Translations under genes and position numbers: made by a program | Assembly: GCA_029287455.1 (NCBI GenBank) | Contig: JARFRB010000032.1 | Location: 1 to 64,000 of the forward strand | Source: Pelagibius litoralis | GTDB taxonomy: Bacteria > Pseudomonadota > Alphaproteobacteria > Kiloniellales > DSM-21159 | Length of the DNA: 64,000 bases | Reading direction: 5' to 3' | Notes under the pieces: generated by a model | The model's input: only the letters and a program-made list of their open reading frames with translations | Told to the model about the DNA's origin: nothing | Database searches by the model: none | Shown here: positions 32,508 to 42,484 of the stretch, piece by piece | Layout: each line of letters opens with the position of its first letter | Position numbering within the stretch: position 1 is the stretch's first letter

Positions 32508-33587
32508 ATGTTCTACCGGGAGGCCGGGCAATTCAAGACGAGCTATGGGGCCGATCAGGCGATCTTCCCCATCCTGCAGGACAAGCTGGCCCTAGCCGGC
32601 ATCATGGCCGTGGCCCTCTTCGTGGCGCCAATGATCGCCAGCACCTATTGGCTCGAGACCATCCTGGTGCCCTTCCTGGTCTTTTCCATGGCCGCCATCG
32701 GGCTCAACATCCTGACCGGCTATTGCGGACAGGTGAGCCTGGGTACCGGTGGATTCATGGCCTGCGGCGCCTTTTTCGCCTACAAGCTCACTACGGCCTT
32801 TCCGGATCTGCACATCGTGCTGGTCTTCCTGCTGTCGGGCTTGGGCACCGCCATGGTGGGAATCCTTTTCGGCATTCCCTCCTTGCGCATAAAGGGCTTT
32901 TACCTTGCCGTGGCGACCTTGGCCGCCCAGTTCTTCCTGATCTGGATGTTTAACAAGTTCGGCTGGTGGACTAACTACAGCGCCTCGGGCGTGATCTCGG
33001 CACCGCCGCGCAGCGTCGCGGGAGATCTCTTCATCACCGGGCCACTGGCCTCGCCGATCGTGAAGTATCTCTTCCTGGTGGTCTTCGTGGCCGTGCTGGC
33101 GCTGATCGCCAAGAACCTGGTGCGCAGCCGGATCGGGCGGAGCTGGATGGCGATCCGCGACATGGACATAGCGGCCGAGATCATCGGCATCCGGCCCATG
33201 ATCGCCAAACTGTCGGCCTTCGCCATCAGCTCGTTCTATATCGGCATCGCGGGCGCGCTTTGGGCCTTCGTCTACACCGGGTCCGTGGAGGCGCTGGCCT
33301 TCGAGATCAACCGCTCCTTCCAGGTGCTCTTCATGATCATCATCGGCGGGCTTGGGTCGATCCTGGGGTCCTTCCTAGGGGCCGCCTTCATCGTGCTGCT
33401 GCCGATCTTGCTGAATAACCTGCCGTCGCTGATCGGCGTGCAGATGTCCGTCGACCTGATCGGGCATCTGGAGTTCATGATCTTCGGGGCGCTTATCATT
33501 TTCTTCCTGATCGTCGAACCGCATGGGCTGGCCCGGCTCTGGCAGATCGGGAAGGAAAAGTTGCGGCTCTGGCCGTTTCCATATTGA
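32508..33587 (+). CDS. branched-chain-type ABC transporter permease (LivM-like)
   Basis: A 359-residue membrane protein of the LivM type: AAIGLNILTGYCGQVSLGTGGF, IPSLRIKGFYLAVATLA, the coupling loop SRIGRSWMAIRDMDIAAEIIGI and FMIIIGGLGSILGSFLGA. The ATG at 32508, four bases after the LivH-like stop, was chosen over an in-frame ATG inside the upstream gene. The channel partner of the LivH-like subunit. Confidence 0.92.
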   Translation: MFYREAGQFKTSYGADQAIFPILQDKLALAGIMAVALFVAPMIASTYWLETILVPFLVFSMAAIGLNILTGYCGQVSLGTGGFMACGAFFAYKLTTAFPDLHIVLVFLLSGLGTAMVGILFGIPSLRIKGFYLAVATLAAQFFLIWMFNKFGWWTNYSASGVISAPPRSVAGDLFITGPLASPIVKYLFLVVFVAVLALIAKNLVRSRIGRSWMAIRDMDIAAEIIGIRPMIAKLSAFAISSFYIGIAGALWAFVYTGSVEALAFEINRSFQVLFMIIIGGLGSILGSFLGAAFIVLLPILLNNLPSLIGVQMSVDLIGHLEFMIFGALIIFFLIVEPHGLARLWQIGKEKLRLWPFPY

Positions 33588-38041: not shown

Positions 38042-38656
38042 ATGGCTTTGGAAACGCTTCTTGCCTTCACGATCTCGGTTTTGCTGCTGGTGCTCGTGCC
38101 TGGCCCGGTTATCGTGCTGGTTTCCACGCTTGGGGCCGCGCGGGGTGTGGGGGCGGCCGTTTCCGCGACCCTTGGCGCCTCGGCCTCCATCGCTGCCCAG
38201 CTTAGCCTCGCGGGGCTTTCCTTACTCTCAATTCTCGAAATCGCACCGCGATGGCTGGTAGCGATCCAAGTCGTGGCGGGCCTCTATATCGCCTATGTCG
38301 GGCTGCGGCTCTTGCGCGCGACTGAGGAGCCGAAGAGCCAGGCGAGCGGCGTGGCGGGTCCTTTCGTCACCGGCTTCATGATTTCCAGCGTGAACCCGAA
38401 GTCCATCCTGTTCTTCGGGGCCATCTTTCCCCAGTTCCTTGACCCAGCCTCCCCCTCGCTTCCCCAGATTCTTACGATGTGCTTGATTTTCCAGGCAATC
38501 TTTACGACCGGGGTTTTGGCCTATGCCTGCTTTGGCGCCTGGCTCGGCGCGCGGCTATCGCAAGTCTCGGCGCGCCCCTGGGCTACAAAAGCCTTGGGCC
38601 TCGGGCTGCTTGTCTTCGGGCTCGGGTTCGGGGTGCTGCCAAGGCTGATCCCGTGA
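38042..38656 (+). CDS. LysE/RhtB-family amino acid exporter
   Basis: A 204-residue inner-membrane protein with about six helices and the family pattern VPGPVIVLVSTLGAARG near the N terminus, YVGLRLLRA, and ISSVNPKSILFFGAIFPQFLD in the middle. Members export amino acids or homoserine-lactone-like compounds. The ATG at 38042 lies just behind a weak ribosome binding site. It overlaps the AraC-type gene by GTGA, so the regulator probably controls this exporter. Confidence 0.9.
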   Translation: MALETLLAFTISVLLLVLVPGPVIVLVSTLGAARGVGAAVSATLGASASIAAQLSLAGLSLLSILEIAPRWLVAIQVVAGLYIAYVGLRLLRATEEPKSQASGVAGPFVTGFMISSVNPKSILFFGAIFPQFLDPASPSLPQILTMCLIFQAIFTTGVLAYACFGAWLGARLSQVSARPWATKALGLGLLVFGLGFGVLPRLIP

Positions 38657-39624
38657 GTCATACTCACGACGGCAATGGGCCATCGAAGGATCGCGGAAGC
38701 TCAATGCAACGCGCCGCCAGAAGCAACCGGACACGCTTCACGAAGCCAAGCACGATTCCTGGCCTATCCTTGCTGACCGCGGATTTCACCACCCACCGCT
38801 ATCCACCGCACAGCCACGATGCCTACGTCGTGGCGGTGACGGAGAGCGGCGGCGCTTGCTTCTCCAGCAGGGGTGTCGATCAAGAGGCCCAGCCCCGCCA
38901 CTTGCTAGTCTTCAACCCGGAAGAACCCCACGCGGGCCACATGGGGCGCAGCCCATCGTGGCGCTATCGCGGTTTTTATCTCGCGGAAACCGCGGCCCGC
39001 GACCTGTCATCGGCTCTGGAATCGCCGGATCTTGGGTATTTCTTGGAGAACGTCGTCATCGACCGGGAACTCATTGGTCTGTTTGCCGAGGTGCATCGCG
39101 ATTTGACTGAAGACCCTGAGCGGGAACCGGATGTGATGCCGTTGCAAGAAGCCTTCGGCATGCTTTTCGCACGTCACGCCAGCGCCAAGCGCCGACCCGC
39201 CAGACCTCCACGTGACCGCCGCCTGGCGCTAAGGGCGCGCGAGGCCTTGCGCGATCGCTTTCGGGAGAGTTTTCGCCTGGCGGACTTGGCGCGAGACCTC
39301 GGCCTCACGCCCTATCAACTCTCCAGGCTTTTCCGGAGGAATTTTGATTTGGGCCCGCGCGACTATCTAATCCACCTGCGGCTCGCGGATGCAATCGGCC
39401 GCCTGAAAGAGGGCCTTCCACTGGCCCAGACGGCGGTCGAGTCCGGATTCTACGACCAATCGGCCATGCACTTTCATTTCAAGAGATGCTACGGCATCAC
39501 GCCGAGCCAATATCTTACCGCGACGGGCCAGGCTTCCCGGGACAGGAGCATCGAGGGGCGGAACGCGGGAGAAATCACAATTTGGCCGCAATTGGGACGG
39601 ACGAGGACCACATTCGGGCCCTAG
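38653..39624 (+). CDS. AraC-family transcriptional regulator
   Basis: An N-terminal cupin-type arabinose-binding domain (YPPHSHDAYVVAVTESG, then VFNPEEPHAGH) precedes two C-terminal helix-turn-helix motifs (RLADLARDLGLTPYQLSRLFRR and AQTAVESGFYDQSAMHFHFKR, followed by GITPSQY). The GTG at 38653 overlaps the LysE-family stop; an ATG at 38704 is an alternative that would give 306 residues. Regulation of the adjacent exporter in response to its substrate is likely. A 25-residue tail follows the HTH. Confidence 0.9.
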   Translation: MSHTHDGNGPSKDRGSSMQRAARSNRTRFTKPSTIPGLSLLTADFTTHRYPPHSHDAYVVAVTESGGACFSSRGVDQEAQPRHLLVFNPEEPHAGHMGRSPSWRYRGFYLAETAARDLSSALESPDLGYFLENVVIDRELIGLFAEVHRDLTEDPEREPDVMPLQEAFGMLFARHASAKRRPARPPRDRRLALRAREALRDRFRESFRLADLARDLGLTPYQLSRLFRRNFDLGPRDYLIHLRLADAIGRLKEGLPLAQTAVESGFYDQSAMHFHFKRCYGITPSQYLTATGQASRDRSIEGRNAGEITIWPQLGRTRTTFGP

Positions 39625-39663
39625 CTAGAAGGCTACGGAGACTTCCCCTCTCTGTTGGAGGTT

Positions 39664-39733
39664 TGCCAGTCTTCCTCGACGGCCCCTCAAAAGACTGGCA
39701 GGCGGCCACCGGACCCGACCCCCGGTGGCCGCC
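39664..39733. terminator. pair of strong stem-loops between convergent genes
   Basis: TGCCAGTCTT (39664-39673) pairs perfectly with AAGACTGGCA (39691-39700), and directly adjacent GGCGGCCACCGG (39701-39712) pairs perfectly with CCGGTGGCCGCC (39722-39733). They lie in the 134-base gap between the AraC-type gene and the convergent coiled-coil operon and probably end transcription from both sides. Neither has a long T-tract. Confidence 0.6.
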
Positions 39734-39758
39734 GCCCCCCAAATCCCAGAATGATAAT

Positions 39759-39947
39759 CTAGACCGGCAGTAAGCCACCGAATAAGCCGAGCGCCAGGGT
39801 GGCAAGAAGAAAGCCATAGAGCGAGACTCTGAGCGCTAAAGCCGCGGGGCCGGAAAACAGCCCCGGCTTCTCCTCAACGGCCAGCCGCACATGGGCTTGG
39901 CGGGCGGGAGGAGCGGCGTGCGCGGTCATGTTATTGGCGTCGGCCAT
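39759..39947 (-). CDS. small one-helix membrane protein, last gene of the ParA operon
   Basis: A 62-residue protein with a polar N-terminal half and one predicted membrane helix (about residues 37-61, ALALRVSLYGFLLATLALGL) running to the C terminus. It overlaps the upstream coiled-coil gene by 17 bases; a second in-frame ATG lies right after that gene's stop (39929), so either start would be coupled to it. I know no homologue. The position suggests that it could anchor the coiled-coil proteins at the membrane. Being short, it might also be a chance frame. Confidence 0.5.
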   Translation of the reverse strand: MADANNMTAHAAPPARQAHVRLAVEEKPGLFSGPAALALRVSLYGFLLATLALGLFGGLLPV

Positions 39948-40428
39948 ACTCCACCAGTTTCACAAGGCGTTCGTTCTGGCGACGCAGGAAGTCAACCTCG
40001 TCGCGCATGCGGCGCAACTCGATGGCTTGGAATTCCAGTATCATCCGCTCCTCGTCCTTCTCGAGCCGGTGAGCTTCCTGGCTTTCCGGATGAGCGCCCT
40101 CCTGGTCGTTACTTTGGCCCTTGTTTGTTGGCATTTCCGGGCCTTTGTCAGGGCTCGCTTCGGCGACGTGCCCTTCGGGAGCGGGTGTAGAGCCCACCCC
40201 ATACTTTCGGACAGTTTGATTTGATTCGGGCAAGGAACGCATGTGCGCGATGGCGAGAGCGACATCCTTCCATTTTTGCTGGGCCGCCTCGTTCCCGGCG
40301 GCCTCATAGGCCTCCATCAGGCCCTGGACAATGCGCTCCGCGTTCTCTTCGTGCGTTTCGATAAGGTGCGCCGCGATCGACTCCGCGCGTATTAGGTTCG
40401 ACACGCCCATACCCTCGAGCCCAGCCAT
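39931..40428 (-). CDS. coiled-coil protein 2 of the ParA operon, unknown family
   Basis: A 165-residue soluble protein in three parts: a helical N-terminal region (about 8-65; AESIAAHLIETHEENAERIV), a polar probably disordered linker (about 70-120; rich in Pro, Glu, Ser, Gly), and a C-terminal coiled coil (about 120-160). Residues 132-160 (EFQAIELRRMRDEVDFLRRQ and the next nine residues) match the coiled-coil segment of the neighbouring protein at 17 of about 28 positions. No known domain recognised. The ATG at 40428 has no clear ribosome binding site; a Met at residue 7 is an alternative. Confidence 0.7.
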   Translation of the reverse strand: MAGLEGMGVSNLIRAESIAAHLIETHEENAERIVQGLMEAYEAAGNEAAQQKWKDVALAIAHMRSLPESNQTVRKYGVGSTPAPEGHVAEASPDKGPEMPTNKGQSNDQEGAHPESQEAHRLEKDEERMILEFQAIELRRMRDEVDFLRRQNERLVKLVEYGRRQ

Positions 40429-40518
40429 TCAAAATCCGACCATAGGCCCGGGAAAATCACAAGACGGTATAGAGGCTTAAGGCTTTGGAGGCTTGCCAGC
40501 GCGAAAAAGCGTGCTGTC

Positions 40519-40866
40519 TCAAAGGCGTGCGATCATCCGCGATAGCTTCTGCCGTAAAGCGTCGAGCTCCGCCTTCAAATCCTCATCGGTCTTCGCCGAA
40601 GCGTTTTCCGCCTCGTCGCGCAACTGCTGCGACTCCCGCAGCAGTCCGCGCAGCCGCTCATCGGCCAAGTCCATCAAGCGTTCGTTCTCTTCTCGCAGAT
40701 AGGCAATCTCATCGCGCAGGCGGTGAAGCTCGATCCTCTGGAATTCAATGGCTTCGGTCACTTCGGTCCCGAGCGGGGTCTCCGTCTCGGCAACTTGCGC
40801 GCTCGACGGCACGGCCGAGGGTACCCCTAGGGTATCTTGTGGGTCTTTTCGCGAGGTAATCGACAC
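40519..40866 (-). CDS. coiled-coil protein 1 of the ParA operon, unknown family
   Basis: A 115-residue protein with a short disordered N terminus (about 1-35, rich in Pro, Ser, Thr) and a long predicted coiled coil from about 38 to the C terminus. Residues 41-70 (EFQRIELHRLRDEIAYLREE and the next ten) are homologous to the coiled coil of the next gene product. GTG start at 40866, 27 bases after the ParA-like gene stop. It is a candidate adaptor or ATPase-stimulating partner of that ParA-like protein. Function otherwise unknown. Confidence 0.7.
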   Translation of the reverse strand: MSITSRKDPQDTLGVPSAVPSSAQVAETETPLGTEVTEAIEFQRIELHRLRDEIAYLREENERLMDLADERLRGLLRESQQLRDEAENASAKTDEDLKAELDALRQKLSRMIARL

Positions 40867-40893
40867 GGTGCCTGTATAAGCCTTCCTGAAGAC

Positions 40894-41574
40894 CTAAGCC
40901 CGCCGGCCACGCGGCGCCGGCAGTTTCCGGGGAAAGCGCTTCCGGCTTGCAACGAAATCCAGCATGGCTTGGTCGAGTTCCTCCGCCGCCGTCCGCAAGG
41001 CCGGGCTCGCGGCCTCGCGGCCCGCGCGCCCACTGCCCAGAGCCGCGGCAAAGCCATCCTTTTGCGGCCAGGTCGGGCCAATCACCTGATATCCGAAGGG
41101 CCGCAAATAGCCGCGCGCATCCGCCTCTTGCCGCTCCGAGCGGCCGGTGCGGGCAAGCACGATCGCTATATCCTTGGCCTTGACGCCCGCAGCCACCAAC
41201 CGGTCGGCCAGCGCCAGGGTCGGCCTCAGGTCGTCGATCGTAACCCCGGTTGGCAGGAAGACCGCGTGGGCGGCGCTGGCCAGTGTCGCGGTGTGCTTGT
41301 CGGCGTAGCCCGGCCCGTCCTCGACCACCACATCGTAGCGGCTGCGCACCTTGTCCATGCGCTTGGGGCTCTTGAAGGATAGAACCTCAAGCTCCGGCTG
41401 GATTTCATTTGCAAGGCGGCGGGCTTGCCAGCCTACGCAGGTCAACTGCTCCACATCGAAATCCGCGATCAGCACCCGCCAATCCGCCTCCGCGAAGACC
41501 ACCGCCAAGGAGCGCGCAAGCGCGGACTTGCCTACTCCACCCTTCTGAGAAGCAAAAACCACGCGAAGAGTCAT
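40894..41574 (-). CDS. ParA/MinD-superfamily ATPase, orphan type
   Basis: A 226-residue ParA-like ATPase. The deviant Walker A KGGVGKS (11-17) carries the signature lysine K11 and the catalytic K16; DFDVEQLT at 38-45 stands at the A' position where ParA proteins usually have D-x-D-P-Q; VEDGPGYAD at 84-92 is the Walker B region. The C terminus is a basic tail (RKRFPRKLPAPRGRR, 211-225) that could bind DNA without sequence specificity. There is no parB or parS in the window, so a chromosome segregation role is unlikely. It heads a minus-strand operon with two coiled-coil proteins, divergent from the ccm genes. Confidence 0.85.
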   Translation of the reverse strand: MTLRVVFASQKGGVGKSALARSLAVVFAEADWRVLIADFDVEQLTCVGWQARRLANEIQPELEVLSFKSPKRMDKVRSRYDVVVEDGPGYADKHTATLASAAHAVFLPTGVTIDDLRPTLALADRLVAAGVKAKDIAIVLARTGRSERQEADARGYLRPFGYQVIGPTWPQKDGFAAALGSGRAGREAASPALRTAAEELDQAMLDFVASRKRFPRKLPAPRGRRA

Positions 41575-41700
41575 CCGCCGTCCCCAATTGCATTTCCCTG
41601 TCTGCAGACTAACCGGAGTCGGGGCATAGATACACTACTCCACGCGAATTCAGCGCATCTGCGAGCCGTCACCAGCTCGTGCGCTTCCGGAGCGCTCGGC

Positions 41701-41741
41701 CCTGGGGTTCGCTCGGACTTGAGCGAAGCCGGCGCCCCAGG
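41701..41741. other. long bulged inverted repeat between ParA-like gene and ccmA
   Basis: CCTGGGG-TTCGCTC (41701-41714) faces GAGCGAA (41721-41727) and, after a seven-base bulge, CCCCAGG (41735-41741). Both seven-base helices are perfect. It lies just upstream of the predicted ccmA promoter in the 250-base divergent gap, so it may be an operator or a structured 5' end of the ParA-side message. Confidence 0.45.
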
Positions 41742-41753
41742 CGCCCACCCGGC

Positions 41754-41782
41754 TTTAAACCCGGCCGCCGCTCTGCTATAGC
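41754..41782 (+). promoter_or_regulatory. predicted ccmA promoter
   Basis: TTTAAA (41754-41759), a 17-base spacer and TATAGC (41777-41782) match the sigma-70 type consensus at four of six positions each. The expected start near 41789 leaves about 36 bases before ccmA, including the small upstream ORF. Confidence 0.45.
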
Positions 41783-41807
41783 CCGCCAGTTCCAAAAGGT
41801 GGGTGAC

Positions 41808-41828
41808 ATGAACCCTTATCCGGCATGA
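41808..41828 (+). CDS. six-residue upstream ORF coupled to ccmA
   Basis: ATG at 41808 encodes Met-Asn-Pro-Tyr-Pro-Ala and stops with TGA at 41826-41828, overlapping the ccmA ATG (ATGA). The upstream ATG has a good ribosome binding site (AAGGTGGG a few bases ahead), whereas ccmA's own ATG has none. This suggests that ribosomes reach ccmA by re-initiation after the short peptide. It may instead be coincidence. Confidence 0.4.
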   Translation: MNPYPA

Positions 41829-42484
41829 CACGGCTTACGGCTGAGGCACTTGCCTGCCTGCGGGGGGAACGGCTGGTGTTCACGCGCCTCGACTTTTCCC
41901 TGGACGCCGGCGAGACATTGCTGCTGACCGGCCCGAACGGAAGCGGCAAGTCGAGCCTGTTGCGCGTTCTGGCAGGATTGTTGCGGCCAATTTCCGGCCA
42001 GCTGCTCTGGAATGGTAGCCCCATCAGGGACGACCTGGGCACCTATCAGGGCAGCGTGCACTACCTGGGGCATTCCGATGCCATCAAGCCCGCCTTGACC
42101 GTTCGCGAGAACCTGGAGTTCTGGGCCCGCCTGCGCGGCGATCGATCAACGGTAGAACCCGCACTCGCGCATTTCGGCCTGAGCGATCTATCGGCCCTTT
42201 CCGCGCAGATGCTTTCTGCGGGCCAGCGCCGCAGGCTGGCTCTGGCGCGACTGCTGGCCACACCGGCCGATCTATGGCTGCTCGACGAGCCCAGTGTGGG
42301 CCTCGACCAGGCATCCTTGCGAAGCCTCGCCACTGCTTTGAACGACCATCGGCGCGGCGGAGGGCTGGCGGTAATCGCAACCCATGCCGAGGTTGGCGCT
42401 GAAAACCCCCGCCGCCTCGATCTCGAGAACTACCGGCCGGCACCCCAGGACGGCGGAGCGGCTTTCGAGGAGTTGGCCTGGTGA
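41825..42484 (+). CDS. ccmA: heme exporter ATP-binding protein CcmA
   Basis: A 219-residue ABC ATPase of the cytochrome c maturation system, which with CcmBCD releases holo-CcmE. Walker A GPNGSGKS is at 36-43, the signature is LSAGQRRRLALARLL, Walker B LWLLDEPSVGLD and the H-loop AVIATHAE. The ATG at 41825 overlaps a six-codon ORF. First gene of the nine-gene ccm block; its stop overlaps ccmB by GTGA. Confidence 0.96.
   Translation: MTRLTAEALACLRGERLVFTRLDFSLDAGETLLLTGPNGSGKSSLLRVLAGLLRPISGQLLWNGSPIRDDLGTYQGSVHYLGHSDAIKPALTVRENLEFWARLRGDRSTVEPALAHFGLSDLSALSAQMLSAGQRRRLALARLLATPADLWLLDEPSVGLDQASLRSLATALNDHRRGGGLAVIATHAEVGAENPRRLDLENYRPAPQDGGAAFEELAW

Follow-up and report, generated by a model that had tools for sequence, protein, structure and literature searches.

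Across ParA/MinD ATPases the partners are modular, and these ATPases carry protein cargo (PMC7993993, PMC10241942). The locus analysed here was compared with several described systems: (i) the ParA plus RHH modules of phages and plasmids (phrog_164 group), which it resembled in the ATPase (33–43% identity to 13 aligned group members, nearly full length) and in the order of an ATPase followed by a small partner, while two helical proteins, a hydrophobic peptide, and a basic ATPase tail were present here instead of the RHH protein, which was not found; the studied analogue of this group is TP228 ParF/ParG, likened by group, with no ParF entry at E ≤ 0.001 among solved structures; (ii) PomX/PomY/PomZ of Myxococcus xanthus, a works-like comparison, likewise composed of one ParA-type ATPase and two partners, with a coiled coil in PomX (PMC7993993); (iii) McdA/McdB and PpfA/TlpT, compared by description, likewise with a ParA-type ATPase outside parAB, a non-ParB partner, and protein cargo (PMC9178275, PMC10241942); and (iv) ParI of Pseudomonas putida, likewise an orphan ParA on an inserted element, which differs in that the cited passage describes no linked partner set (PMC9178275). 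No description of this four-gene arrangement was found in the literature consulted, which is a weak basis for calling it unpublished.

The locus is a minus-strand run of four ORFs at 39759–41574 of the window (the whole 64-kb stretch of DNA that was analysed), headed by the ParA ATPase gene, and these ORF coordinates bear out the original prediction of a four-gene run with short gaps and overlap. It comprises P0001 (40894–41574; 226 aa), a ParA ATPase of the phage/plasmid partition type; P0002 (40519–40866; 115 aa, GTG start), helical protein 1; P0003 (39931–40428; 165 aa), helical protein 2; and P0004 (39759–39947; 62 aa), a small hydrophobic protein, all on the minus strand. Gaps of 27 nt and 90 nt separate P0001 from P0002 and P0002 from P0003, respectively, and the start of P0004 overlaps the end of P0003 by 17 nt. 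The GTG start of P0002 is uncertain, the gene caller having favoured 40812. All four frames are open, and the coding scores per codon (codon usage, own frame) were 0.21, 0.19, and 0.18 for P0001, P0002, and P0003, respectively, against at most 0.10 for the other frames of these stretches and a window-gene mean of 0.26 (sd 0.08, n 55); P0004 scored 0.05, yet higher than its other frames. P0001–P0003 thus score as genes, while P0004 is the weakest and least certain part of the operon. GC3 of the four genes was 0.70–0.78 versus a window-gene mean of 0.81 (sd 0.04). Genes next to the operon, named from ORF reading, encode a LysE-type transporter and an AraC-type regulator or belong to ccm; there is no cargo gene within the four-gene operon and no obvious one among the neighbors, whereas cargo-positioning ATPase genes are often near cargo loci (PMC10241942).

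The deviant Walker A motif with K11 and K16, as had been predicted, is present in P0001 (KGGVGKS). In an alignment of 16 rows there was no variation at Q10, K11, G12, G13, K16, D38, D40, Q43, D86, and D115, and all of these residues except D40 (D in 59 and N in 33) were identical across all 92 compared ATPases; judged from these alignments, P0001 keeps its catalytic and nucleotide-contact residues. It has the features that mark phage/plasmid ParA in sequence, namely the signature lysine and the Walker A' and B aspartates, and its best library match was phrog_164 (phage partition ParA; 8.3e-26, over residues 1–208). Its plasmid relatives amounted to 919 records, all below 60% identity (37–42% in the best 20 rows), its phage relatives to 31 records, and the nearest ATPases found were at most about 44% identical. 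On this evidence from alignment and profile, P0001 belongs to the phage/plasmid partition group, and it is nearer to that DNA-partition group than to other ParA proteins of the same genome. Membership in NF041546 was rejected (83.9 bits, under the curated cut-off of 180); nine relatives of the P0001 group scored likewise below that cut-off (86.7–125.5 bits), and in eight of the nine an RHH partner was recognised. In a 67-row tree, five chromosomal C24-type proteins formed a clade that did not include P0001, whose exact position was not settled and whose branch (1.61) was the longest in the partition group (median of all end branches 0.32). P0001 also carries an extra basic C-terminal tail (residues 210–226, 40897–40947, minus strand; 8 K/R of 17): the net charge of its last 20 residues is +8, and 0 of the 92 compared ATPases exceeded +2 in the same stretch.

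The canonical parA-parB pair of this genome is located on contig C37 and not on the contig of the operon, in agreement with the prediction that the ATPase is distinct from chromosomal parAB. As to the claim that no parB or parS is present, the window contained no site with three or fewer mismatches to the chromosomal parS consensus; elsewhere the genome contains the pair on C37 and a weaker second ParB_N match on contig C94 (20750–20935; 29.1 bits, cut-off 26.3; 120-aa open frame). DNA partition with the chromosomal ParB was rejected on account of the C37 location and the lack of a parS-like site in the window. A second non-canonical ParA of 213 aa is encoded at C24 6841–7482; it belongs to the same ATPase family as P0001 (25% identity in the alignment), but unlike P0001 it exceeds the NF041546 cut-off (227 bits), falls in a separate clade, and has a neighborhood that recurs in several genomes of the order, including a YrdC/Sua5-like gene and an FAD-linked oxidase (ORF reading). 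Two genomes that share a genus with each other carry a chromosomal ParA plus RHH pair (L010, 8159–8812 in G331; L011, 5018–5668 in G407), adjoining a 2-oxoglutarate-oxygenase-like gene and several TPR-rich proteins (ORF reading).

The partner usually following this kind of ATPase was not found. An RHH-like short protein was recognised by an RHH model no more than 250 nt downstream of the ATPase in 76/80 viral loci (the best 80 of the 178 viral relatives found), a figure partly by construction because 73 of these loci, picked by a chosen pattern, had supplied the seed of the model; an RHH gene was counted if its start lay within this distance, and in L143 another ORF intervenes. Of the four misses, three (L098, L137, and L161) extend no further than 250 nt past the ATPase gene, and in L128 a different ORF occupies this stretch. 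The model found a downstream partner in 7/8 plasmid loci, plasmid and genome partners being outside its seed, though one seed sequence is the same as the L066 partner. A 30-partner profile, of which six control or plasmid partners were rows, detected an RHH partner adjacent to the ATPase in 7/8 control genomes; in G436 the partner region was masked and the sole RHH match was weak and about 36 kb away. The label RHH is used because 6/10 sampled partners matched an RHH-type Pfam family at E ≤ 0.1 (none above cut-off; best RHH_10, 1.5e-4) and because of their sequence pattern. With the 30-partner profile, no adjacent partner was seen in G002 and 0/69 candidates in the genome studied here matched at E ≤ 0.1, while the RHH model matched no frame of the window at E ≤ 10 and gave 2.7 bits or less for P0001–P0004 (P0002: 1.9 bits). 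The P0001 locus thus has no detected adjoining RHH centromere-binding protein, by which type Ib modules are recognised, and P0002 occupies the gene position normally held by that partner.

These results bear on a reading in which the operon continues to work as a module for DNA partition or of plasmid type, with P0002 (or P0003) a fast-evolved or replaced centromere binder in which RHH features are no longer recognisable, and the whole a remnant of an integrated plasmid or phage. The group of the ATPase, which is that of phages and plasmids, the place of P0002 27 nt downstream, and the probable insertion of the unit (see below) are in keeping with it; P0002, predicted from its single sequence as a tail plus one long helix without strand, and its score with the RHH model argue against it, as does the fact that no plasmid or phage gene was recognised among the called window genes (ORF reading). 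Neither direct nor inverted repeats of at least 10 nt were present in the parA–ccmA gap (41560–41850), and the one array found, a short one of 3.2 copies, lies inside parA; parH-type centromere boxes are degenerate tetramers, and boxes of this kind would escape these repeat searches. Because such boxes could be missed, this reading gains slightly on the preferred one, and we regard it as an unlikely though serious contender.

The flanks of the operon were compared with those of related genomes. Plus-strand positions 39635–39735 were 78–82% identical to a non-coding element located upstream of ccmA in relatives (the whole RNA-like conserved element is at 39632–39735, plus strand, outside the operon, whose boundary it marks). 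The element was found in 7/8 ccmA flanks (G002, G004, G006, G007, G008, G010, and G011; absent from G001), a set that includes neither G005 nor the two genomes without a full ccmA match, G003 and G009. It lay directly upstream of ccmA, roughly 0.09–0.16 kb before it, in all seven relatives and 2.1 kb before ccmA in the window, where the space between the two is taken up by the four-gene operon. G002 has matches, collinear apart from one extra gene, to the window genes at 32508, 33716, 35086, 35957, 37209, and 41825, and its interval contains neither the operon nor the LysE/AraC pair. The operon is probably an insertion between the RNA-like element and ccmA; insertion is preferred here because it is simpler than repeated loss in the relatives, by which the arrangement could still have arisen. 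The LysE-type transporter and AraC-type regulator genes (38042–39624; ORF reading), lying between a methyltransferase gene and the RNA-like element, are possibly a second insertion adjoining the operon, given their absence from the G002 interval.

The element itself is about 104 nt long, with three predicted hairpins: the first has a loop, CUUCCCC, identical in 7 aligned sequences, C-rich stretches occur in the other hairpins, and the last is terminator-like, with a T-run following in 3/7. RNAalifold gave 24 pairs, 3 of them with changes on both sides, and a covariation term of only -0.95; against Rfam 6C RNA the element scored 28.9 bits, below the gathering threshold of 47. It is a candidate unnamed small RNA. 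The strong hairpins past P0004 were rejected as an intrinsic terminator of the operon, since they coincide with this opposite-strand conserved element.

Family-library searches of P0002–P0004 gave no convincing match, in agreement with the original prediction, which recognised none of the three families; matches of P0002 to YabA, ZapB, and DUF6779 were far under cut-off and were taken as coiled-coil noise. In single-sequence AlphaFold2 models, P0002 had a low-confidence N-terminal tail followed by one 84-residue helix (residues 31–114) and no strand, and P0003 had helices at residues 9–44, 47–65, 68–75, and 114–164, which give a helical hairpin and, after a linker of low confidence, a C-terminal helix; the P0003 fold had no match in the PDB at E ≤ 0.001. 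The description of the partners as dominated by coiled coils was accordingly upheld for the long helices but not for the heptad repeat, which was not significant in a crude shuffle test of five stretches (p 0.09–0.84). P0002 and P0003 share a segment (P0002 residues 40–69, 40660–40749; P0003 residues 131–160, 39949–40038; both minus strand) with 17/30 identical residues (57%; E 1e-9), visible in the DNA too (82 nt, 71%). Read directly, most of its 4-3-spaced positions carry hydrophobic residues, and an Asn and a Gln are common to both copies, giving a zipper-like appearance, and we infer that it may act as a dimerisation module of the two proteins. Its codons comprised 11 identical ones, 6 silent differences, and 13 residue changes, and 13 replacement versus 6 silent changes gives no strong sign of constraint on the segment.

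A coiled-coil protein had been proposed as activator of the ATPase. In activators of ParA/MinD ATPases the N-terminus usually bears a positive charge (PMC7993993, PMC10241942), and 65 RHH partners had a median net charge of +3 over their first 30 residues (61 above 0), whereas the corresponding values were -2, -4, and 0 for P0002, P0003, and P0004, respectively; none of the three has the positively charged disordered N-terminus that is usual, though not universal, for cargo-positioning partners, and the proposal lacks its usual signature. PomX uses a positively charged peptide at its N-terminus for activation, and P0002–P0004 do not have one, though PomY, the second activator of PomZ, is also without it (PMC7993993). 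The membrane anchor of the original prediction was not supported beyond one C-terminal hydrophobic segment of P0004 (residues 41–59, mean hydropathy 1.87), whose ORF scores weakly, as given above.

The distribution of the operon was surveyed at several levels. At E ≤ 1e-20, P0001 had no match in the other 60 of the 61 genomes of the order; weaker ParA matches (E ≤ 1e-4) occurred in 47/58 other order genomes (best 9.9e-15), and the ten of these whose neighborhoods were read were other ParA proteins without partners of the P0002–P0004 type. Matches were obtained in five others of 385 genomes of the class (E ≤ 1e-15; best 44% identity) and in three others of 398 genomes of a phylum sample (E ≤ 1e-18), the class and phylum searches scoring at most 7 candidates per genome for the ATPase and, in the class, at most 9 for P0003. 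P0003 retrieved itself and the P0002 segment, and no more, both from 12 family genomes and from the 385 class genomes, where it had no relative in the 384 others. P0002 was represented in these genome-set searches by the shared segment, whose matches in 14/384 other class genomes (E 5e-4 to 1e-2, 18–22 bits) were rejected as noise, being partial and weak. P0002 and P0003 had no match among plasmids at E ≤ 0.1, P0001 and P0003 none among genome contigs and viral contigs by a search that detects close relatives only, and P0002, P0003, and P0004 none by blastp among the ORFs of the 80 viral loci, P0004 having been searched in these ORFs and in family libraries. Conservation of the four-gene order across the order was not supported, neither P0001 (E ≤ 1e-20) nor a P0003 relative having appeared in the other genomes; as far as sampled the gene order is unique to this strain, an outcome that the original prediction had itself set down as counting against it. 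The family and order samples contain no second genome of this genus.

Because no relative of the operon or of its helical proteins was found, selection across species is not demonstrable. A further reading is a decaying or neutral insertion, with genes devoid of present function drifting after capture. The long P0001 branch would fit such decay, and the lack of relatives, the lower GC3, the weak score of the 62-aa ORF, and the 13 replacement versus 6 silent changes between the shared segments point the same way; against this, none of the four frames is interrupted, P0001–P0003 score as genes, and P0001 keeps the residues identical in all 92 compared relatives. On balance we consider decay unlikely, slightly more so than a surviving partition module.

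ParI provides a precedent for a different role, that of an orphan ParA on a genomic island destabilising plasmids (PMC9178275), and the P0001 ATPase might by analogy be an incompatibility or exclusion factor that interferes with the partition of plasmids or phage-plasmids of its own group when they enter the cell. An inserted unit with catalytic residues present and no RHH partner found would suit such a factor, yet this role leaves two linked helical proteins and a small hydrophobic one unexplained, and since even the nearest ATPases found share no more than about 44% identity, it is doubtful whether P0001 could cross-talk with their RHH partners. A function of P0001 in anti-phage defence was rejected, the best PADLOC match being no more than a P-loop stretch of 40 residues, which also speaks against exclusion. 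Among the alternatives considered, this one appears the least probable, and distinctly so.

The explanation we prefer, tentatively and as the leading candidate rather than a probable one, is that a partition ATPase of phage/plasmid type was captured by the chromosome, had its DNA-binding partner replaced, and was re-tasked to a protein or membrane cargo. The central claim of the original prediction, that the operon positions cargo, is in line with the kept catalytic residues, the separation from parAB, and the usual partner not having been found, but not with a gene order that is, as far as sampled, unique to this strain. After capture, the RHH partner would have been exchanged for P0002/P0003; the ATPase would bind the nucleoid non-specifically, perhaps by means of the added basic tail at its C-terminus; the zipper-like segment that they share would let P0002 and P0003 pair, each with itself or with the other; one end of their assembly would touch the ATPase, while the other end (the P0003 helical hairpin and/or P0004) would hold a protein or membrane cargo, whose distribution or placement would follow the gradient mechanism usual for ParA. 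Nucleoid binding, adaptor pairing, and the nature of the cargo are what we infer from the gene set, a protein or membrane cargo being probable because the DNA-binding partner would have been replaced. A further-reaching version, rather unlikely in our estimate, is a self-contained, insertable cargo-positioning cassette, in which a zipper-sharing adaptor pair and a membrane peptide replace the DNA binder and the ATPase tail gives nucleoid binding or self-activation.

The locus bears on how ParA ATPases passed from DNA to protein-assembly cargo. P0001 stands nearer to the DNA-partition group than to the other ParA proteins of its genome yet has a different partner set, which makes partner exchange directly testable at this locus.
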